NCBI GenBank assembly: GCA_009192285.1
Contig: CM018603.1
Span: forward strand, 1,775,802-1,839,801
DNA length: 64,000 bases
Origin: Morchella semilibera
Taxonomy: Eukaryota > Ascomycota > Pezizomycetes > Pezizales > Morchellaceae
Direction of reading: 5' to 3'
Shown here one piece after another: positions 21,301 through 60,990 of this stretch. Position 1 is the first letter of the stretch. Each line of letters begins with the position of its first letter. The notes under the pieces are model-generated. The model was not told where the DNA came from, made no database searches, and saw nothing but the letters and a program-made list of their open reading frames with translations. A program made the translations under genes and the position numbers.

Positions 21301-22464
21301 GTTTCGCCGCAGCTCGGAACTCGGATACCCCCTTCACTACCTTATAAGGTCACAGGATGTAAGTATAACGTTGTTATGGTTAGTGTCACCCGAATTTGGA
21401 TTTTATTCTCAAACTTTGTATTTACAACCATGGGACTAACATAAAGTAATAATGCCGACGATATCAGCTATCTGCTACCTACTACAACCGCAAGGGTCGA
21501 AATTCTATAGAACTGTCTGGCCCGACCCTCGGACTCCGAAGCCGAGTGCTGCTTCCTAATAAGGACTGTCCTTAACTTCCGCTTTTTTCCCTCTTCCTTC
21601 TTAGAGTCATTCTCTGACCCTAGCTATTGGCGACTCGTGTGTGCTGTTGCCGTACTACATATAGTCAGTCCGAGATTTGAGGGTTGAAGGGTTAGGACCT
21701 TGTAGGTTCAATAGTAACAAATACCTATTAAGGAGGCAGATATGAGCAGTGGTACAATGCCCCACTTTCTTTATTGAACCTAGTATGTAATAAACGGGTA
21801 ATATATGAACACATGTGTTTACATGCACATAAGTACCAGTAGTAGGTCAGGACCACTGCCACCCATGGCCCTGGGGCGAGAATCTGGGGCAAGGACAAGG
21901 CTTAGCAGGATGTGGGTTACACCGGTCAGATGGGGAAGATTATTGAAGCCATCCACCAAGAAAAACCTTGGCTGCTCCTTGCATTGTCCCAACTGGGAAA
22001 TTCCCAGTGAAATCATCCTGGTTATCTTGACATGTAGCGTTCAAAATGCAGAGCTTCTAACGCGGCGGTCTTGAACTTGGAGGAACGCTGCCTCAGATAT
22101 CCTTTTTTTTTTTCGGGAAAACTACAGCACCTGTAAGCATATTGGCTTTTTACGGCAAAGATCGTATTATTCGTGACAACCCAGTACATCCCCCTGTTTG
22201 AGAGCAGTTGTGCAATGCCCTAAAGCAATATTAGATGTAATATCCAGAAGTTAGCTTATATACGAAAGCACAAGGAGCACGGGAAAGGGGTATAAGATCA
22301 ATGGATCTGCCCAAGCTCTATTTCAAAGCACCTAATTCGCAGGCTCTATTCTCCCCCTTAGTAAATGATAGGAGGCTATCCACACCTCCTCTCTGAATCA
22401 TTCCCCTTATTTAACTCCGGTCTAAAGCCCTGTTCGCTTTTCCTCCTATTAGATTTTGGTCGAA
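18349..22464. other. Gene-free stretch, 4.1 kb
   Basis: AT-rich DNA with no coding region I can support. It contains an inverted-repeat element (18878-18980), poly-T and poly-C runs (18908-18920, 20506-20518) and many ACATGTA palindromes (about 19326, 19555, 19970, 19986, 20442, 20588). The small open frames have no family signature. Confidence 0.6.
18878..18980. repeat. Inverted-repeat element, about 103 bp
   Basis: Terminal arms ACCGGACAAT (18878-18887) and ATTGTCCGGT (18971-18980) are perfect complements, and the pairing resumes inward with GGTTTT/AAAACC-like blocks. A poly-T run sits in the middle. The structure resembles a small MITE. No second copy was found in the window. Confidence 0.5.
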
Positions 22465-23655
22465 ATGAAATTTTCTACCCTTATCTATGGCTCAGTCCTA
22501 GCCTCCCTCCCACTATTCACAAATGCTTGGCTTCCAGAAGGAAAAATCCGTGGCGTCAACCTCGGTGGTCTCTTTGTCGTTGAGCCATGGATGATGCAGG
22601 ATGAATGGAGCGCAATGGGTTGCGCCGGCCAAGTCAGTGAATTTGACTGCGTGTTAAAACTCGGTCAAACCGCAGCCAACGCCGCTTTCCAGGCGCACTG
22701 GAATCGCTGGATCACTCATGATGATATCACCCAAATCGCCAGCCTAGGCTTGAACACCGTTCGTATCCCTCTAGGCTATTGGATATATGAGGATATCGTG
22801 TATAGCGATAGCGAGCACTTCCCTCAAGGAGCCTTCCAATATTTGGAGCGTGTGTGCATGTGGGCAAGGGATGCAGGACTTTACATCATTCTTGATCTTC
22901 ACGGTGCGCCAGGCGCACAGCAGCCTACGCAGCCCTTTACGGGGCAGTATGCACCTACGGCTGGTTTCTATGTAGACTATCAGTACGAAAGGGCCTATAA
23001 ATGGCTTGAATGGATAACTAACATTGTCCACACCAACTCCAACTTCGCAAATGTTGGAACAATCCAGCTCGTTAACGAGCCCATCCAGAACTCTGAAACC
23101 GTTGCAACAATGATCTCTGAATACTATCCAACGGCATTCAAGCGGATCAGGGCTGTTGAGTCAGGTCTTGGTATCACCGCCAATAACTACGTCCACATCC
23201 AGATGATGAACGAAAAGTGGGGGTCCGGAAACCCTAATGCCAATCTCGACGATCTCTACTTCGCCTTCTACGACGACCATCACTACGTCAAATGGACTCC
23301 CGGCGTTACTGTTTCCAGAGATGGCTACATGCGTCATTCGTGCACTGATGACCGTAGCGGAAACTGGCCTGTTATCACGGGAGAGTGGAGTATCAGTGTC
23401 GCTGACTCTGCTGAGTGGGGTGATGAATTTACCCTTGACCGTAGTGACGCAGTCGAGTGGTATCGTAAGTGGTGGGCGGCCCAGTTCTTGAGTTACGAGA
23501 AGATCGATGGGTGGGTCTACTGGAACTGGAAAGTCAACTGGATCGGGGGGAGGAACGATTGGAGATGGGGGTACCAGCAAGCTGTAGCTGCTGGAGCTAT
23601 CCCAACGAACCCATTGGATGCGTATAGCTGGAATGTTTGTGATGGGTACACTTGA
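22465..23655 (+). CDS. Secreted glycoside hydrolase family 5, endo-beta-1,6-glucanase type (GH5_15)
   Basis: Single exon, 396 aa. The start ATG at 22465 opens a signal peptide (MKFSTLIYGSVLASLPLFTNA, 21 residues with cut after FTNA), so the enzyme is secreted. Family landmarks: KIRGVNLGGLFVVEPWM, GLNTVRIPLGYW, YIILDLHGAPGAQ, LVNEP with the acid/base Glu near residue 205, and VITGEWS with the nucleophile Glu near residue 307. The closest pattern I recognise is the fungal beta-1,6-glucanase subfamily, which cuts beta-1,6-glucan in fungal cell walls. A role in own-wall remodelling or attack on other fungi is inferred. An exo-beta-1,3-glucanase is the main alternative. It has no introns, unlike most other recognisable genes here, and sits alone between AT-rich gaps. 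Confidence 0.88.
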   Translation: MKFSTLIYGSVLASLPLFTNAWLPEGKIRGVNLGGLFVVEPWMMQDEWSAMGCAGQVSEFDCVLKLGQTAANAAFQAHWNRWITHDDITQIASLGLNTVRIPLGYWIYEDIVYSDSEHFPQGAFQYLERVCMWARDAGLYIILDLHGAPGAQQPTQPFTGQYAPTAGFYVDYQYERAYKWLEWITNIVHTNSNFANVGTIQLVNEPIQNSETVATMISEYYPTAFKRIRAVESGLGITANNYVHIQMMNEKWGSGNPNANLDDLYFAFYDDHHYVKWTPGVTVSRDGYMRHSCTDDRSGNWPVITGEWSISVADSAEWGDEFTLDRSDAVEWYRKWWAAQFLSYEKIDGWVYWNWKVNWIGGRNDWRWGYQQAVAAGAIPTNPLDAYSWNVCDGYT

Positions 23656-24201: not shown

Positions 24202-26514
24202 TTATGCGACAGTCCCGGCCATAGCCAGCAATAATGTATGAGCGATTACGTGCAGCGACCACAACCCGACCTTCTTAAATCGCCTTCGCCTGGCTTGATC
24301 ATCCACTACACTGCGAGCAAACCCTTCGTAGGTCTAAATAGATTTGTTAGCGGCTGTTTGAAATGCCTGGGACTGGGGTAACACCTCTGCAGACAGGTCG
24401 TCCATCAAGCCACTGTCGTAGATTGTCCAACTCCCGTCAAACTCGTCCTGCTTTTTTACAACACGGCAGTTGATGGGGATGTAGGTTTTTCGGCGGTTGA
24501 TGTATGCCACGATTGGTCTTATCAGTGCGTTGTTGACATAGCTGAGATCTCTTGTGAATAAAGGCACAGAGGCGCGAACATCGTTTAGCTGTATTCGGAG
24601 ATCCATTATAACGTATTTTTCGGCTTTCCTATCTTCCGACTTTCTGTTGTCGTTGTCAAAGAACTTTCTGGCCGAGTTCGAGGATACTGTAGCTTCCATT
24701 CGTTCGACGATGTCCTGGACCACCTGAGTAAACTGGAGGTCATTCTCCACTGGGAACATGATATCCGCAACGATGTCAACATTTCCACTCTGAATCCACG
24801 AGAACATCCCTCCTGCACCGTGATTTAGATGATCAATTTCAAGCCCGTCAATTCGGAGGCGGCTAGTCTTTTTCCACAGATTAGGAGTGCGGGAGCCGTT
24901 ATCTTTCAGCATCATCGAACTCACGCCGTGGCTCTGCCTGGGGTGTATTGTGAACAACGAGTCATCGAAAGAGCCAGACATCATGTTTGCACTCAAAAAG
25001 TCGTAGAATAACCATTGCTTTCTCAGTTGTGGAAGATCGCAAGAGAATATACTGAAAGAGAATGGGCGGAACCCATCTGGCTGCTGTACTGTTACTAAAA
25101 GATCCTCAAGCTTGAACGAATCGATCTCAAAGTCTCCTGGGACATGTTCATGCTTAAATGATCTGGGATCAACGCCCTCCTCCCAGCTAACGTGAGTCCG
25201 GTCGATTACCCCACGAACTCCTTTAATCTCGACATCTTTGAGAAGCCCCTTGCCGTTCATCCATTTTGTGAAGGAAAGGGTGACATTGACGGCGTCAATT
25301 GTAACGTCGAACTGAGTGTAATTCGTATTCTCCTCTTCCGCCGTAACAATATGGTTATGATTCTTTCCGCTTGTTTCGTCTGCGTGAGCTGCTGCGGCAG
25401 CTGCCGCCGCTGCAGTAACCGAAGATCCCTTACGAACGTTTTTGTTGCCTTGCTTCTCTCGACCAGGCCTACGGGATACGAAGACGTTTTTGAATGTGAT
25501 ACATCCACCTTTCCAGCTGGGAACGATGGCTGACTCAAAAACGACCTTGACCCCGGTTTCCTTCGTGAGATAGTTACCCACCGCTCTAGCAAGAGATTCT
25601 TGCGCAAACACAGTATTGACCAAGAGTATGGTCAACGAAACAAAGGTTGTAGTCCCGAGCACGATCCATAAAACCTGACCAAGCAGCAACCATGAGAAGA
25701 AAGCGCTGAGGTCATCCCAATTATATGGCCTCATCTGCCGTATCATGGCCCATTTCGTTCGGATCCTCAATCGCTGAAAGAACCCAGTTGCTGCCGCCAA
25801 CATCTCATCCTTTGTTGGCCGATGAATGTGAGAAATCCGGTCTAAAAGCCTATTCTCTTCGGGGTGTTTATTCAATACATCTCTTTTTACCGATTCGCTC
25901 TCCTCACTCTCAGTTTCGTTACTGCTCTTATTACCATTTTCATCCTCATTCCCGTTTTCGTTTGCATTAACACCAATGGTCCTATTTTTTTGCAGCCTTT
26001 TCCCTGCCCTTTGGTCAATTCCACTATGAGCTCCCCTTCCACCCCCACTCCGACCCCGGGGCGATGAATAACCCGCCCTCAACCTTGATAGAATTTTCAG
26101 CTTTGTCGACCTCCCCCCAGTATGAATACACCGAGACCAAGCAGCGCCCGCTATCCACGACATCTTTCGTCTATCCAGCACACTGCTAGTAGATGTCAAA
26201 CTCCTGTCCACTGTACTCACGGCACATGATTTCGTCTCTGAGGCGGCTGCAGTTGTTGGTGCACTTGTCCATACACAGAACCCCGCGAATCCACGAGAAA
26301 CAACATATTTTGACCTTGGACACCATAATGTCGCCGCCGCTCCGGCGGATGAGGAGAAAAATCGAGGTCGGTGTGGGAAGGAGTGTATTAATAGTCGAGA
26401 AGCGCCTCCAACTGATGCTGGAGTAGCTGAGGAAGATAACAGGGAATTGTGGAGCAATGGGAGGACAGCGTCCCAAATGCTGGCGTACAACCTACGGCCA
26501 GGACTTATGGCCAT
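24202..26514 (-). CDS. MDM31: Mitochondrial inner-membrane protein Mdm31 family
   Basis: Mdm31/Mdm32 proteins sit in the mitochondrial inner membrane and affect mitochondrial shape, mtDNA inheritance and lipid homeostasis. Exon 1 is 26514-24385 and exon 2 is 24333-24202; 753 aa. The N-terminus is Ser/Ala/Arg-rich, as expected of a targeting peptide. An Asn/Glu low-complexity segment follows, then IRTKWAMIRQMRPYNWDDL. The first membrane segment is at about residues 271-302, and then comes the intermembrane-space body with TKETGVKVVFESAIVPSWKG and GMFSWIQSGNVDIVADIMFP. I infer a 51-nt terminal intron (24384-24334, GTGTTA...TTTAG with branch GCTAAC). It replaces a short read-through tail by YEGFARSVVDDQ and KKVGLWSLHVIAHTLLLAMA, the expected second membrane segment. 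The start is the first ATG of the frame. Confidence 0.87.
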
Positions 26515-27126
26515 GTTCTCATCGGCATGTGTTCGGCTGGGATACTGTGATGGTGAAGGGTCAATGGTTATCGAAATTTGATTCCCGGGGGTGTGGTTTG
26601 CGGGGCGAAGAATGACGATATGGTTTATTTTGCGGCAGCACTTTCACAAGCGAGAACCAGATTAGCACTGTGCTGCAGATATTACGGCGCTGCAAAATCT
26701 TCTTTGAAAAGTTTAGGTCGGAATTTCCACAAAAACAACATATTTATAAATGATTGGCGCTTTGTTTCACCAAATTGGACTGTGTTTTGTGCATATAGAC
26801 TATTCATAAATGCCCTCGTCACGTGCAAGTACTTAACACTCCATGAAATATCACTCGACCTCCACCAAAACTAAGATTCTTGAAACATGTCTACGGTACT
26901 GTAGGTTTTGTTGCGTTTCGCTCTTAAGAGCTGTAACAAAACCGACCTATTCATTCTTTGTTTGTTTAGGAAAATAATCCTCATGTATAGAAGCCGTTAC
27001 AATGTAACAAATAAATCTCAAAAGAAATCCCTTTAGCATCATGACCTAAAGGGAAATCTTCCACCTCGTCCTAAAGTTATCTCACCATTAGAGATCAAGC
27101 TTAAGACTGAGGACAAATACAATCTA
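26515..27126. other. Intergenic, 612 bp
   Basis: Upstream of Mdm31 and downstream of the next minus-strand gene. I see no coding region or element. Confidence 0.5.
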
Positions 27127-28270
27127 TCAGAGCATCTGTGTGCCAATTGCAATTGCGATAGCTAAGGAGGTCCAGGCGAAAAACCAGAACGAACGATAAG
27201 CAGACTCTGCCCAAGACAAGGCGCCATTTACTTCTCCAACCCCTGTTGGGCGTGTAGGAAGATCTGTCGGTGTGTTGTTTGAAGCTTGAATAGCAGAGGT
27301 AGGAAACTTATTATATGAGATAAAAAGATCAATCGTTGATTTTACAGCGTTAGGATTGTCTACAATCTTCGGGATCATAGACATGCTCAAACTTTTAGTT
27401 TTTATACCCTATTTAATAGAGTTAATACGTATGAATTGAAACACAAGAGGAAATATATACCTCGCTAGAGGTCTCCGCTTGGTAGGATAACTCTTGTGCA
27501 GCTACAGACTGGCGCAGTTTCACAAGATCTTGCAGATCGAATCGATCCTGCATTACTATTTTGCAGTAGGTTTGGCATGTGGGTGTATGGATGCTTCCAT
27601 CCAGCTGTGGGTTTGCCCTTTGGCATTCCATCTAGGTAAGAAGCCCTGGTAAACAAGAAGAACCCAGATAAATGGTTTGAGACTTACAATGCACTCTTTT
27701 AGATTATCTAGGGGCTCTAGACAGTCATCATGAATAAGCTTTTATGCGGACCCTGAGAAAGAAAGGATCGTACCCAAAGGGAGCAAATCTCGTTTTGAAA
27801 CACCGGGTTTGAACTTGTTTATAAAAGGACCCAGTGTTCTATCGTAGCAATCTGAACGGCACCCGGTATAGCCTTTGATATCGACAGTAGGAGACATATA
27901 TGTTTCGGTGCAATCAAGCTAGAACCAAGGATGTGTGTTTAATAAGTCTCATTGGATGCGTAGAAATGATACAGGGGAAGGCACGACATACTACACACTG
28001 TTCTGTGAGTAGAACCTCGGAATCATCAGGGTTCTAGTGGGTATATATTTGACATTAGCTACTGAACGGCAAGGTATCAGTGAAAATCGGTTGAAGAAAC
28101 AAACAGGGGCCGAAGTATACCGGGCTTGCAAGGCAAGAATTATGACAATCAGTGTCCATGTCAAAATAACCGTGAATCCAACAGATTTCTTTACATAATG
28201 ACAGTTTATCTGCCATAACCAGCGAGATACTGGTAAGCAAAAGCGTAGTAAGGATCGACGACAACTTCAT
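27127..28270 (-). CDS. Secreted cysteine-hairpin repeat protein (three CxxxC...CxxxC units), unknown function
   Basis: I do not recognise a family. Model of six exons: 28270-28121, 28033-27992, 27918-27774, 27716-27688, 27631-27461, 27408-27127; 272 aa, all borders GT-AG and in phase. Residues 1-20 are a clear signal peptide ending VMA. Three units follow, each CxxxC then CxxxC: C26/C30/C42/C46, C63/C67/C84/C88 and C121/C125/C141/C145, with 11, 16 and 15 residues between the pairs. This spacing is that of alpha-hairpinin-type helical hairpins held by two disulfides. Introns cut units 2 and 3 at the same place (between the 2nd and 3rd residue of the first CxxxC, phase 0), pointing to exon duplication. 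The C-terminus is strongly hydrophobic (SFWFFAWTSLAIAIAIG), suggesting a GPI signal or a membrane anchor. An effector or surface role is only a guess. Confidence 0.72.
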
Positions 28271-28668: not shown

Positions 28669-30046
28669 CTACAACTTTGCGTTGGTCTGAGCAAATACCA
28701 CTTTGTTCTTGATGCTGCCCACACCCTCAAGGCCGATCTCTATAATATCTCCGTCATTTAGCCATTGTTGAGGAGATTTACCCATTCCAACTCCTTGTGG
28801 CCTACCAAACTATCAGCTATTGATAATTCCTCATAAAATAGATCATCGCTTACGTTCCAGTAAAAAGAATGTCACCAGGCACTAGTGTGGTTCCTTGTGA
28901 CAGGAACGCGATCGTTTTTGCTACAGAGAATATCATGTCTGCAGTCGAAGAGTCTTGCATAGTCTTACCGTTGACCTAAAGATGATACCGTAAGCATTTC
29001 CGAGCCTAGAAGTAGTCATAATTGCTATACCTTTGTTGATATTCGAAGGTTTTGGGGGTCTTTGATAAGCTTAGGGCTAATGATAGCAGGCCCCATGGGG
29101 GCCCATCCATCAAATCCTTTCCCCAACGACCTAGGCCTGAATTAACACAAGATCTCGTGCAAATACAATTTATTTACTTGCCATTGGCCACCACCCTTCT
29201 TCAATTGCCAGTCTCTGTGGCTCACATCGTTTCCCACGGTGTAGCCTAAAACATATTCCAAGGCCTTGTCCTCTGAGACATCTCTCGCCTCTTTTCCAAT
29301 GATAGCAACAAGTTCACATTCATAGTCGAGGCCGGGGTCAGATTGGACAACACTGTGAACCGGAATGGGGTCTGGATTAGAGAGTTAGGGCAATCCTTCT
29401 AGGATCTATTTTTAGGCTGTCCGATATCATCTGCGGGGCGACTTTTGAATACATACCAAAAGGTCCCGCAATGGAAGTAACAGGTTTGTACTTGTTTGTC
29501 AGCATGGGTTCCGGGTTCACTAGAATTCAAGCTTAAAACTTACGAAAACTACTGGGAACTTTGGAATCGGCATATTTGACTAATGATAGCGATATTAGTA
29601 TTGGAGCTATGTTTATAGAAAATTTAGTTTATCAAATACCTCTTTTGCGTGTTGGGCATAGTTGAGGCCTAAGCATCTCACAGTTCTAATATCCTCCATC
29701 GCAAGTGGGGATAGAAGTTTTCTGATATCCTGCTCGACTCATGATATCTGGTAAGCTCTTATGTTAAGGTAACGAGGCATTAAAGGTCCATTAGGGTGGA
29801 TATAATACTATGGCTTTCTCAGTAACATTGTGGTTAGCATTGAGTATGTCTCCTTCGATAAGCTTGGCTTTGAGTGCCTTGGACACATCAGTAGTTCCGT
29901 GGGGGAGAACGGCGTCGCCGTAGTATGTCTTTCCGTCTCCAGCCACGAATCGGACGAGACGCTGCGCCAGTAGAATTAGAAATAAACTAATAAATGTATC
30001 ACGGCGGCAAGATAAAACATCATACCGAGAATGTGTGAGACGACAT
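28669..30046 (-). CDS. Fumarylacetoacetate hydrolase (FAH) family protein, with one apparent +1 frameshift
   Basis: FAH-fold hydrolases of this small type cleave acylpyruvates or decarboxylate oxaloacetate, using a divalent metal. Nine exons: 30046-30026, 29961-29809, 29729-29640, 29579-29544, 29490-29457, 29371-29178, about 29130-29031, 28975-28854, 28801-28669. The join reads [114 protein letters not shown] and [15 protein letters not shown]. The Glu-x-Glu metal motif (ECEL) is present. Between exons 6 and 7 (GGGQW to GKGFDGW) no splice choice keeps the frame. Removing one base (for example in CCCC at 29121-29124) gives 293 aa in frame. This is either an assembly error or a disabled copy. 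Confidence 0.8.
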
Positions 30047-31162: not shown

Positions 31163-32141
31163 CTACGGCCCAATGACACCATCCGCCCAGAGCTTTCTCT
31201 TAGCACCCATTTCGACAGCTGCGTCCTGCATTAGCCCCAAATAGAGGAATATTCCACAGTGAAAAGTAGCTCACCTGCTTCACCCCAATCTTCACCGTGG
31301 TTGTGGCCATCTGAGGTTAACCCAGCACGTTTCTTTGCTTGATCTTCACTAAGAACAGTCTTCAAGAAGTTAGAAACACCGCATTTCGACGAGACTTGAA
31401 ATAGATATCCCCCTACCAGTAGCCCAAATATAACCGGGACACCAAAATCCAATTGGAGTCTCATCAATCCACGAGAGACTGACTCCGCAATGTGTTCAAA
31501 GTGCACCGTATCGCCCTTAATCAACACCCCAATGGCAATGATAGCATCGAATGGCCCTTTGCTAGAGGTTCCAGTGGTGGAACCGGGGATTGGAGTTGAA
31601 CTGCGGCCAAGCCCCCCAAGGAGGTCCCCAGAAGGAGCCGAAGAAGCTTGGACCTGAGAGGCAGCATACAATCTGGGTGATTAAAGTCTTAGATATTGGC
31701 TTTACTTTTATTTATGAAACATCACACTTTCTTTAAATGGGTGGGATGGACGGGAATATGTAATAGCTCCCCAACGTATCAGGGAGCAATGGTGATGCAG
31801 GAGGTGTTTCTCAAAGGGAAATCGAACCGTTGAACGGCTATTGGCAGTTCCCAACTACCAGGGACGCTCTGCGTAATTATATTCAATGGCTTCACGCCGC
31901 GTTCTAGAAGCTTTTTCTTCGCGCCTTCCACGAGGGGTGTAATCAAGGTAGAGTTCCAGCGGGCGTGCACAATGAGAACACGGAGGTTGGAGCCTGAAAG
32001 TTTATTTTATTGGAATCTATATTGGAATTTTGGGGGGGTATTGATTGGTGTGAAGAGGGACAGTAAGTTCACGGAATGGATGCAAGAAAACATACCATCC
32101 AATGCCTCAACTTCACCAGGGCCTTTAGCGCCAGAAAACAT
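31163..32141 (-). CDS. RIB4: 6,7-dimethyl-8-ribityllumazine synthase
   Basis: Penultimate enzyme of riboflavin synthesis: joins 5-amino-6-ribitylaminouracil with 3,4-dihydroxybutanone 4-phosphate. Five exons: 32141-32096, 31993-31828, 31672-31417, 31359-31275, 31218-31163; 202 aa, the normal fungal size. Landmarks in order: [13 protein letters not shown] (substrate-binding Trp), [33 protein letters not shown], then [14 protein letters not shown] with the catalytic His, [18 protein letters not shown], and [14 protein letters not shown] at the C-terminus. The 57-nt intron after FGLL (31416-31360) and the acceptor ACGCAG before CTGTCGAA give this continuous match. A Ser/Gly-rich insert between QVQASS and KGPFDA is typical of filamentous fungi. 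Confidence 0.93.
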
Positions 32142-35288: not shown

Positions 35289-37799
<2,511 letters not shown>

Positions 37800-60704: not shown

Positions 60705-60951
60705 TCCGGAGGCCGTTGCCAAGGCAATTACCCTCCCGTCTCTCCTAATAACCTCGCTAACCATTTGTTGCCTCCCGAGCCTCCCGATGGCCTCCCGAGC
60801 CTTCTAGAGAGTCTCCTGAGCCTTCTGTTACCCTCCTTACCTCTCCTGACACCTCGCTAATTGTATGTAGCCTCCTGAGCCTTCTAGAGGGCTCCCTGAG
60901 CCTTCTGTTACCCTCCTCTCCTGACACCTCGCTAATTGTTTCTCGCCTCCC
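60705..60951. repeat. Minisatellite, about 80-90-bp unit, three diverged copies
   Basis: Tandem, diverged units share blocks such as TTACCCTCC, CTCTCCTGACACCTCGCTAA, TTGT, GCCTCCCGAG and CCTTCTAGAGGGCTCCCTGA. Copies start at about 60705, 60796 and 60877, and shorter GAGCCTTCCAGAGGGCTTCC echoes run on to 60990. Confidence 0.7.
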
Positions 60952-60990
60952 GAGCCTTCCAGAGGGCTTCCTGAGCCTTCCAGAGGGCTT

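Follow-up and report, generated by a model that had tools for sequence, protein, structure and literature searches.

A minus-strand gene in the window (the whole 64-kb stretch of Morchella semilibera DNA analyzed here) raises the question of what kind of protein a fungus would build from twelve cysteines that all fall in CxxxC pairs, two of which are split by an intron at the same place. The gene spans 27127..28270 and is predicted to run from an ATG at 28270 to a TGA ending at 27127, with six exons encoding 272 amino acids; as re-derived here, the model agrees with the first-pass annotation in its start, its stop, its 12 cysteine positions and both of the intron positions reported there. Exon 1 (28270-28121) encodes the presumptive signal peptide and all of unit 1, and ends after P50 in phase 0. 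It is followed by exon 2 (28033-27992; 42 nt), which ends after C63-V64, exon 3 (27918-27774; 145 nt), exon 4 (27716-27688; 29 nt), which ends after C121-I122, and exon 5 (27631-27461; 171 nt), while exon 6 (27408-27127) encodes a linker bearing Ser/Thr, Asn and Pro and then the hydrophobic end. The five introns measure 87, 73, 57, 56 and 52 nt, and GT...AG borders are present in all five.

The cysteines of the predicted product, at residues 26, 30, 42, 46, 63, 67, 84, 88, 121, 125, 141 and 145, are accounted for entirely by six CxxxC pairs, and the three CxxxC-n-CxxxC units originally described at this locus are recovered with the same pairs. Unit 1 (28133..28195, minus strand) connects C26-C30 to C42-C46 through a loop of 11 residues and has no internal intron; unit 2 (27847..27997, minus strand) connects C63-C67 to C84-C88 through a loop of 16 and is interrupted by intron 2; unit 3 (27563..27693, minus strand) connects C121-C125 to C141-C145 through a loop of 15 and is interrupted by intron 4. 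When 12 cysteines were placed at random on the 252-residue mature part, six CxxxC pairs were obtained in none of 200,000 placements, and five pairs in 3 of 200,000. A hairpin pattern with an intron inside the CxxxC has two matches in the 64-kb window, each in frame and each belonging to this gene, compared with none in 60 copies simulated by a first-order Markov model; because these two cases served to design the pattern, the comparison gauges how rare it is and does not amount to an independent prediction. Across a real-sequence background of 264 kb, made up of the window and 200 kb of neighboring sequence, the intron-bearing pattern has four matches, namely the two in the gene and two overlapping ones in a single further locus (L019) that are Cys-rich, of low complexity and contain a stop. 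The uninterrupted hairpin motif, counted without rows that have a stop or a cysteine inside the loop, occurs at three places in the same 264 kb: one is unit 1 itself, and the others are frames of 113 residues (in L014) and 35 residues (at the L026 edge).

The protein opens with a signal-peptide-like segment (residues 1-20; 28211..28270, minus strand) that holds its most hydrophobic 15-residue frame, and by the (-3,-1) rule cleavage presumably follows VMA. The second-ranking hydrophobic frames, starting at residues 252-255, fall on the C-terminus (residues 253-272; 27130..27189, minus strand), such that the hydropathy of the predicted protein is consistent with both the signal peptide and the hydrophobic C-terminus noted previously. 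This terminus is preceded by a candidate GPI site, N240-G241-A242, which by inspection is separated from the 20-residue tail by a ten-residue spacer, and the sole N-glycosylation sequon of the protein is at residue 223. A secreted, multi-unit CxxxC-n-CxxxC protein is thus supported by the sequence, and this protein is probably surface-anchored. As judged by a weak method, the first CxxxC of every unit has a higher helix propensity than the loop of that unit, with the clearest difference in units 2 and 3; the second CxxxC scores poorly in unit 3 (C141), and in unit 1 it does not exceed the loop. Prolines are located between the units of the predicted sequence.

Given that all 12 cysteines lie in CxxxC pairs, that both ends are hydrophobic, that N-G-A is followed by its spacer, and given the helix propensity and the inter-unit prolines, we favor, tentatively and with somewhat less than even confidence, a protein in which three disulfide-clamped helical hairpins are carried as binding modules on a Ser/Thr/Pro-bearing stalk that is GPI-anchored at the cell surface. 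Such a protein would pass through the secretory pathway, and a GPI anchor would hold it on the outside of the plasma membrane or wall. Each module would consist of two antiparallel helices with the 11-16-residue loop between them, and its disulfides would link Cys1 to Cys4 and Cys2 to Cys3. With their loops and outer helix faces, the three differing copies may then each offer a small binding surface that resists proteases; what they bind could, as a guess, be a polymer of the wall, some secreted enzyme or a partner cell.

That the units originated by exon duplication had been proposed in the first-pass annotation, and this proposal finds an argument in the placement of the introns and no sign in the residues, the intron sequences or DNA repeats. 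Intron 2 (27919..27991, minus strand) lies inside the first CxxxC of unit 2, after C63-V64, and intron 4 (27632..27687, minus strand) lies inside the first CxxxC of unit 3, after C121-I122; both are in phase 0 and share one place, after the residue that follows the first cysteine, at an offset of +6 nt each. The chance of a shared offset between two units is approximately 1.3% (0.013) if five introns are placed randomly, which is a crude, after-the-fact null. Unit 1 has no intron at this place, and between the introns that lie upstream of unit 2 and of unit 3, both the phase (0 vs 1) and the offset (-36 vs -23 nt) differ. With cysteines held fixed, shuffled sequences scored as high as the real comparison in 1993 of 5000 cases for units 2 and 3, in 1992 of 5000 for units 1 and 2, and in 4300 of 5000 for units 1 and 3. 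Furthermore, the best alignment of unit 1 with either of the others sets the cysteines out of register, and MAFFT without padding left C42 of unit 1 unpaired with its counterparts; the units are not self-registering. At the nucleotide level, introns 2 and 4 resemble each other no more than shuffled sequences do (1716 of 2000 scoring as high), nor do introns 1 and 3 (1704 of 2000), the coding stretches of units 2 and 3 were equaled by 813 of 2000 shuffles, and no direct DNA repeats of at least 14 bases were found within the gene. As the intron place is shared and no other sign of duplication is seen, any duplication would be old; alternatively, the two introns may have been gained independently at one favored place.

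The lack of significant residue similarity beyond the cysteines is also what would be expected if the units are not repeats at all and the protein folds as one compact six-helix domain, whose 12 cysteines would bond partly across units and form no independent hairpins. Cysteine-rich, single-domain CFEM proteins exist in this genome, as evidenced by five exon-level CFEM matches. Nevertheless, we consider the single domain unlikely: the order CxxxC-n-CxxxC is regular, prolines separate the units, and neither the protein nor its units gave a Pfam match to CFEM (PF05730). The CFEM and hyphosphere (HFS) proteins are, as here, fungal, secreted and Cys-rich, and the HFS pattern holds one CXXXC, but in the available text of the source it comprises eight cysteines (PMC8596622), as does the CFEM pattern, vs twelve in the present protein.

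Independent hairpins of the kind we favor have their best-known parallel in the alpha-hairpinins of plants, a pattern that had been recognized here from the outset. Each of the three units fits the published inclusion rule for the hairpinin motif, CX3C-X4-20-CX3C (PMC11591084), with loops of 11, 16 and 15, the fit of unit 3 hinging on the acceptor at 27632; as stated in the available part of PMC7191063, however, a cysteine pattern alone neither classifies a peptide nor predicts its three-dimensional structure, and for this reason we do not file the protein as a hairpinin. Plant hairpinins, as well as some peptides of scorpions and cone snails, have this spacing and fold as a two-helix hairpin closed by Cys1-Cys4 and Cys2-Cys3 bonds (PMC7191063). 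The protein resembles plant alpha-hairpinin precursors of the MiAMP2, Tk-AMP-X and Luffin P1 type in its layout, with a predicted signal peptide followed by tandem modules and a C-terminal domain, and identity between alpha-hairpinin members is low (PMC7191063, PMC11591084). It differs in being fungal and in its hydrophobic, probably GPI-type end, as well as in having introns inside its modules, whereas the available text describes the Tk-AMP-X genes as intronless and the MiAMP2c gene as having one intron, in its C-terminal vicilin-like part (PMC7191063). The trypsin-inhibitor arginine that VhTI and BWI-2c have four residues after the second cysteine (PMC7191063) occurs in none of the three units, which have G34, Y71 and N129 at that position. 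As for the plant origin that characterizes alpha-hairpinins, the genome has CFEM matches, a domain described in the accessible text of PMC7409268 as found only in fungi, and the window has an MDM31/32 gene. By analogy, the protein may work like a hairpinin scaffold, its membership among the hairpinins being unproven.

Two other systems invite comparison. Unit 2 alone has a likeness to zf-Tim10_DDP (E 0.092; 12.7 bits vs a cut-off of 22.3), and the whole protein has no match to that family. The small Tims that this family represents carry a twin CX3C with a helical hairpin, and are intermembrane-space proteins without a signal peptide; in contrast, the present protein has three tandem units, a signal-peptide-like start and, by hydropathy, a hydrophobic end. 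The likeness of unit 2 to the small Tims is taken to reflect the shared twin CX3C spacing only. QID74 of Trichoderma is likewise secreted, composed of tandem Cys-bearing units and wall-associated, and its repeats bind a chitinase of its own fungus (PMC13170347). It differs in having thirteen 59-residue repeats with a NGKQCVCPKGQVW motif and, as far as the available text of that source describes it, no CxxxC hairpins (PMC13170347).

A plain secreted effector, either unanchored or with a different C-terminus, would also be Cys-rich and secreted, and a candidate extra intron at 27231-27162, found by enumeration, would take out most of the hydrophobic tail. Exon-level matches in the genome to cutinase (12) and CBM1 (22) make a plant-associated or plant-decaying fungus likely, one that probably handles plant material. 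However, cutinase and CBM1 genes are also common in saprobes, and exon 6 reads through into the hydrophobic end in the six-exon model. Of 25 window frames searched against Pfam, 17 hit families of ordinary domains and the other 8 had no match, which leaves no mark of an effector cluster. The neighbors with Pfam matches include a GH5-type gene (22453-23652), MDM31/32 (24337-26643), FAA hydrolase pieces (28850-28975 and 29142-29384), lumazine synthase (31234-31680), and GATase and SIS pieces (35880-37494), the last of which we take to be GFAT-like. All in all, we regard a plain effector as improbable.

Several further features of the genome were noted. The cutinase matches at C12:1269488-1270047 and C13:1268366-1268925 have equal scores, lengths and spacing and sit at almost the same coordinate, as if the two contigs were duplicates or haplotypes. 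Within the window, a 75-base tandem repeat of 2.5 copies and 87% matches (60790-60980) has the longest period among the 24 repeat rows. Elsewhere in the genome, a diverged 5.8S rRNA-like stretch (L010 788-959; C19:2699587-2699758) scores 39.5 bits, under the gathering score of 42; it is the sole 5.8S match, with 39 of 1209 candidates scored, and no rDNA unit is recognizable by eye around it in the first 2200 of 3001 bases.

The protein might alternatively be a precursor. K106-R107 (27790..27795, minus strand), a possible Kex2 site, sits between units 2 and 3, and no other KR or RR occurs in the sequence; cleavage there would free units 1-2 as a diffusible peptide, for example an effector or antimicrobial, while unit 3 would remain anchored. 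Plant modular hairpinin precursors are indeed cut to release their units (PMC7191063). Nonetheless, the dibasic pair stands alone, with no KR or RR between units 1 and 2 to part those modules, and we think processing of this kind quite improbable.

Relatives were sought in several collections. In Pfam, neither the protein nor its units had a match above cut-off, and weak matches below the cut-offs, to MINAR1_N (0.007, 0.056), Furin-like, DUF6934, DAP_DH_C and zf-Tim10_DDP (0.09), were rejected. Among PDB sequences, nothing was found with the full protein or unit 3, and unit 1, unit 2 and the three-unit profile each gave one unrelated match (E 7.5, 0.63 and 0.64, respectively); the missing PDB match to a known hairpinin weighs little because that family has low identity. 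Protein queries against the genome itself (56.8 Mb, 23 contigs, E <= 10) returned five matches for the full protein, all of them exons of this gene and none a paralogue, one match for exon 3, again this gene only, and two for a blended 44-amino acid query, both at this locus. A C-terminal query found this locus and two weak matches, one of which (E 0.05) is antisense to a Rho-type GTPase gene recognized by eye and was dropped, and the other of which (E 0.33) holds two stops. Pattern scans, which are sensitive to close relatives alone, gave one matching stretch in viral contigs and five in prokaryotic genome contigs, with none confirmed in either. Thus no close paralogue in the genome and no curated Pfam family is detected, a result that does not establish orphan status.

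The gene model itself was examined by enumerating models from the ATG at 28270, blind to cysteines, with introns of 45-110 nt and hand-set splice weights, which yielded 108 complete models of at least 150 amino acids. The six-exon model ranks 3rd of the 108 by length and 85th by a crude splice score, the latter because the score adds a bonus for each extra intron. The 20 listed of these 108 models all share exons 1-3 as well as the donor sites of introns 4 and 5, and they carry 11-13 cysteines and 5 or 6 CxxxC pairs. At intron 4, a second in-frame acceptor at 27605 competes with that at 27632; the latter yields C-I-M-E-C, and C125 of unit 3 depends upon it, use of the former losing nine residues (MECQRANPQ) including C125. 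Alternative splicing at this intron (27605-27687, minus strand) would toggle unit 3 between four and three cysteines. By a codon-usage measure whose training set was twelve window frames, some of them without a Pfam match, the gene appears weakly coding, at 0.042 per codon vs -0.019 and -0.038 in the other two frames, where the training frames themselves score 0.119 (SD 0.079); in exons 1, 4 and 5 an alternative frame scores slightly above the reading frame, and the measure is ambiguous there. A pattern search of the five introns for the strict YTRAY branch site was positive for introns 1 and 5 and negative for introns 2, 3 and 4. That the model is wrong or the gene decaying, with a cysteine order that is partly the product of splice-site choice, would accord with the weak codon bias, the branch sites missing from introns 2-4, the low splice rank and the failure to find a relative, but we consider it very unlikely, as the 20 listed of the 108 cysteine-blind models agree on so much of the structure and keep nearly all of the cysteines and pairs, the 272-codon product stays open across five introns, and the intron-in-CxxxC pattern appeared in none of the 60 simulated windows.

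Among the papers listed in searches of the open-access PMC literature, there is no fungal family of tandem CX3C hairpins. It is conceivable, albeit on balance doubtful, that the gene represents such a family, undescribed and GPI-anchored, which would have arisen independently of the plant hairpinins and in which an ancestral intron in the first CX3C would have allowed modules to be gained or lost. Should the fold of three anchored hairpins that we favor fail, the locus would add one more uncharacterized Cys-rich surface protein to those of fungi. If it holds, fungi would own tandem helical-hairpin proteins on the very surface that plants attack with hairpinin peptides, which would constitute convergence on one disulfide scaffold, and the matched introns in two of the modules would offer a handle on how such modules multiply.
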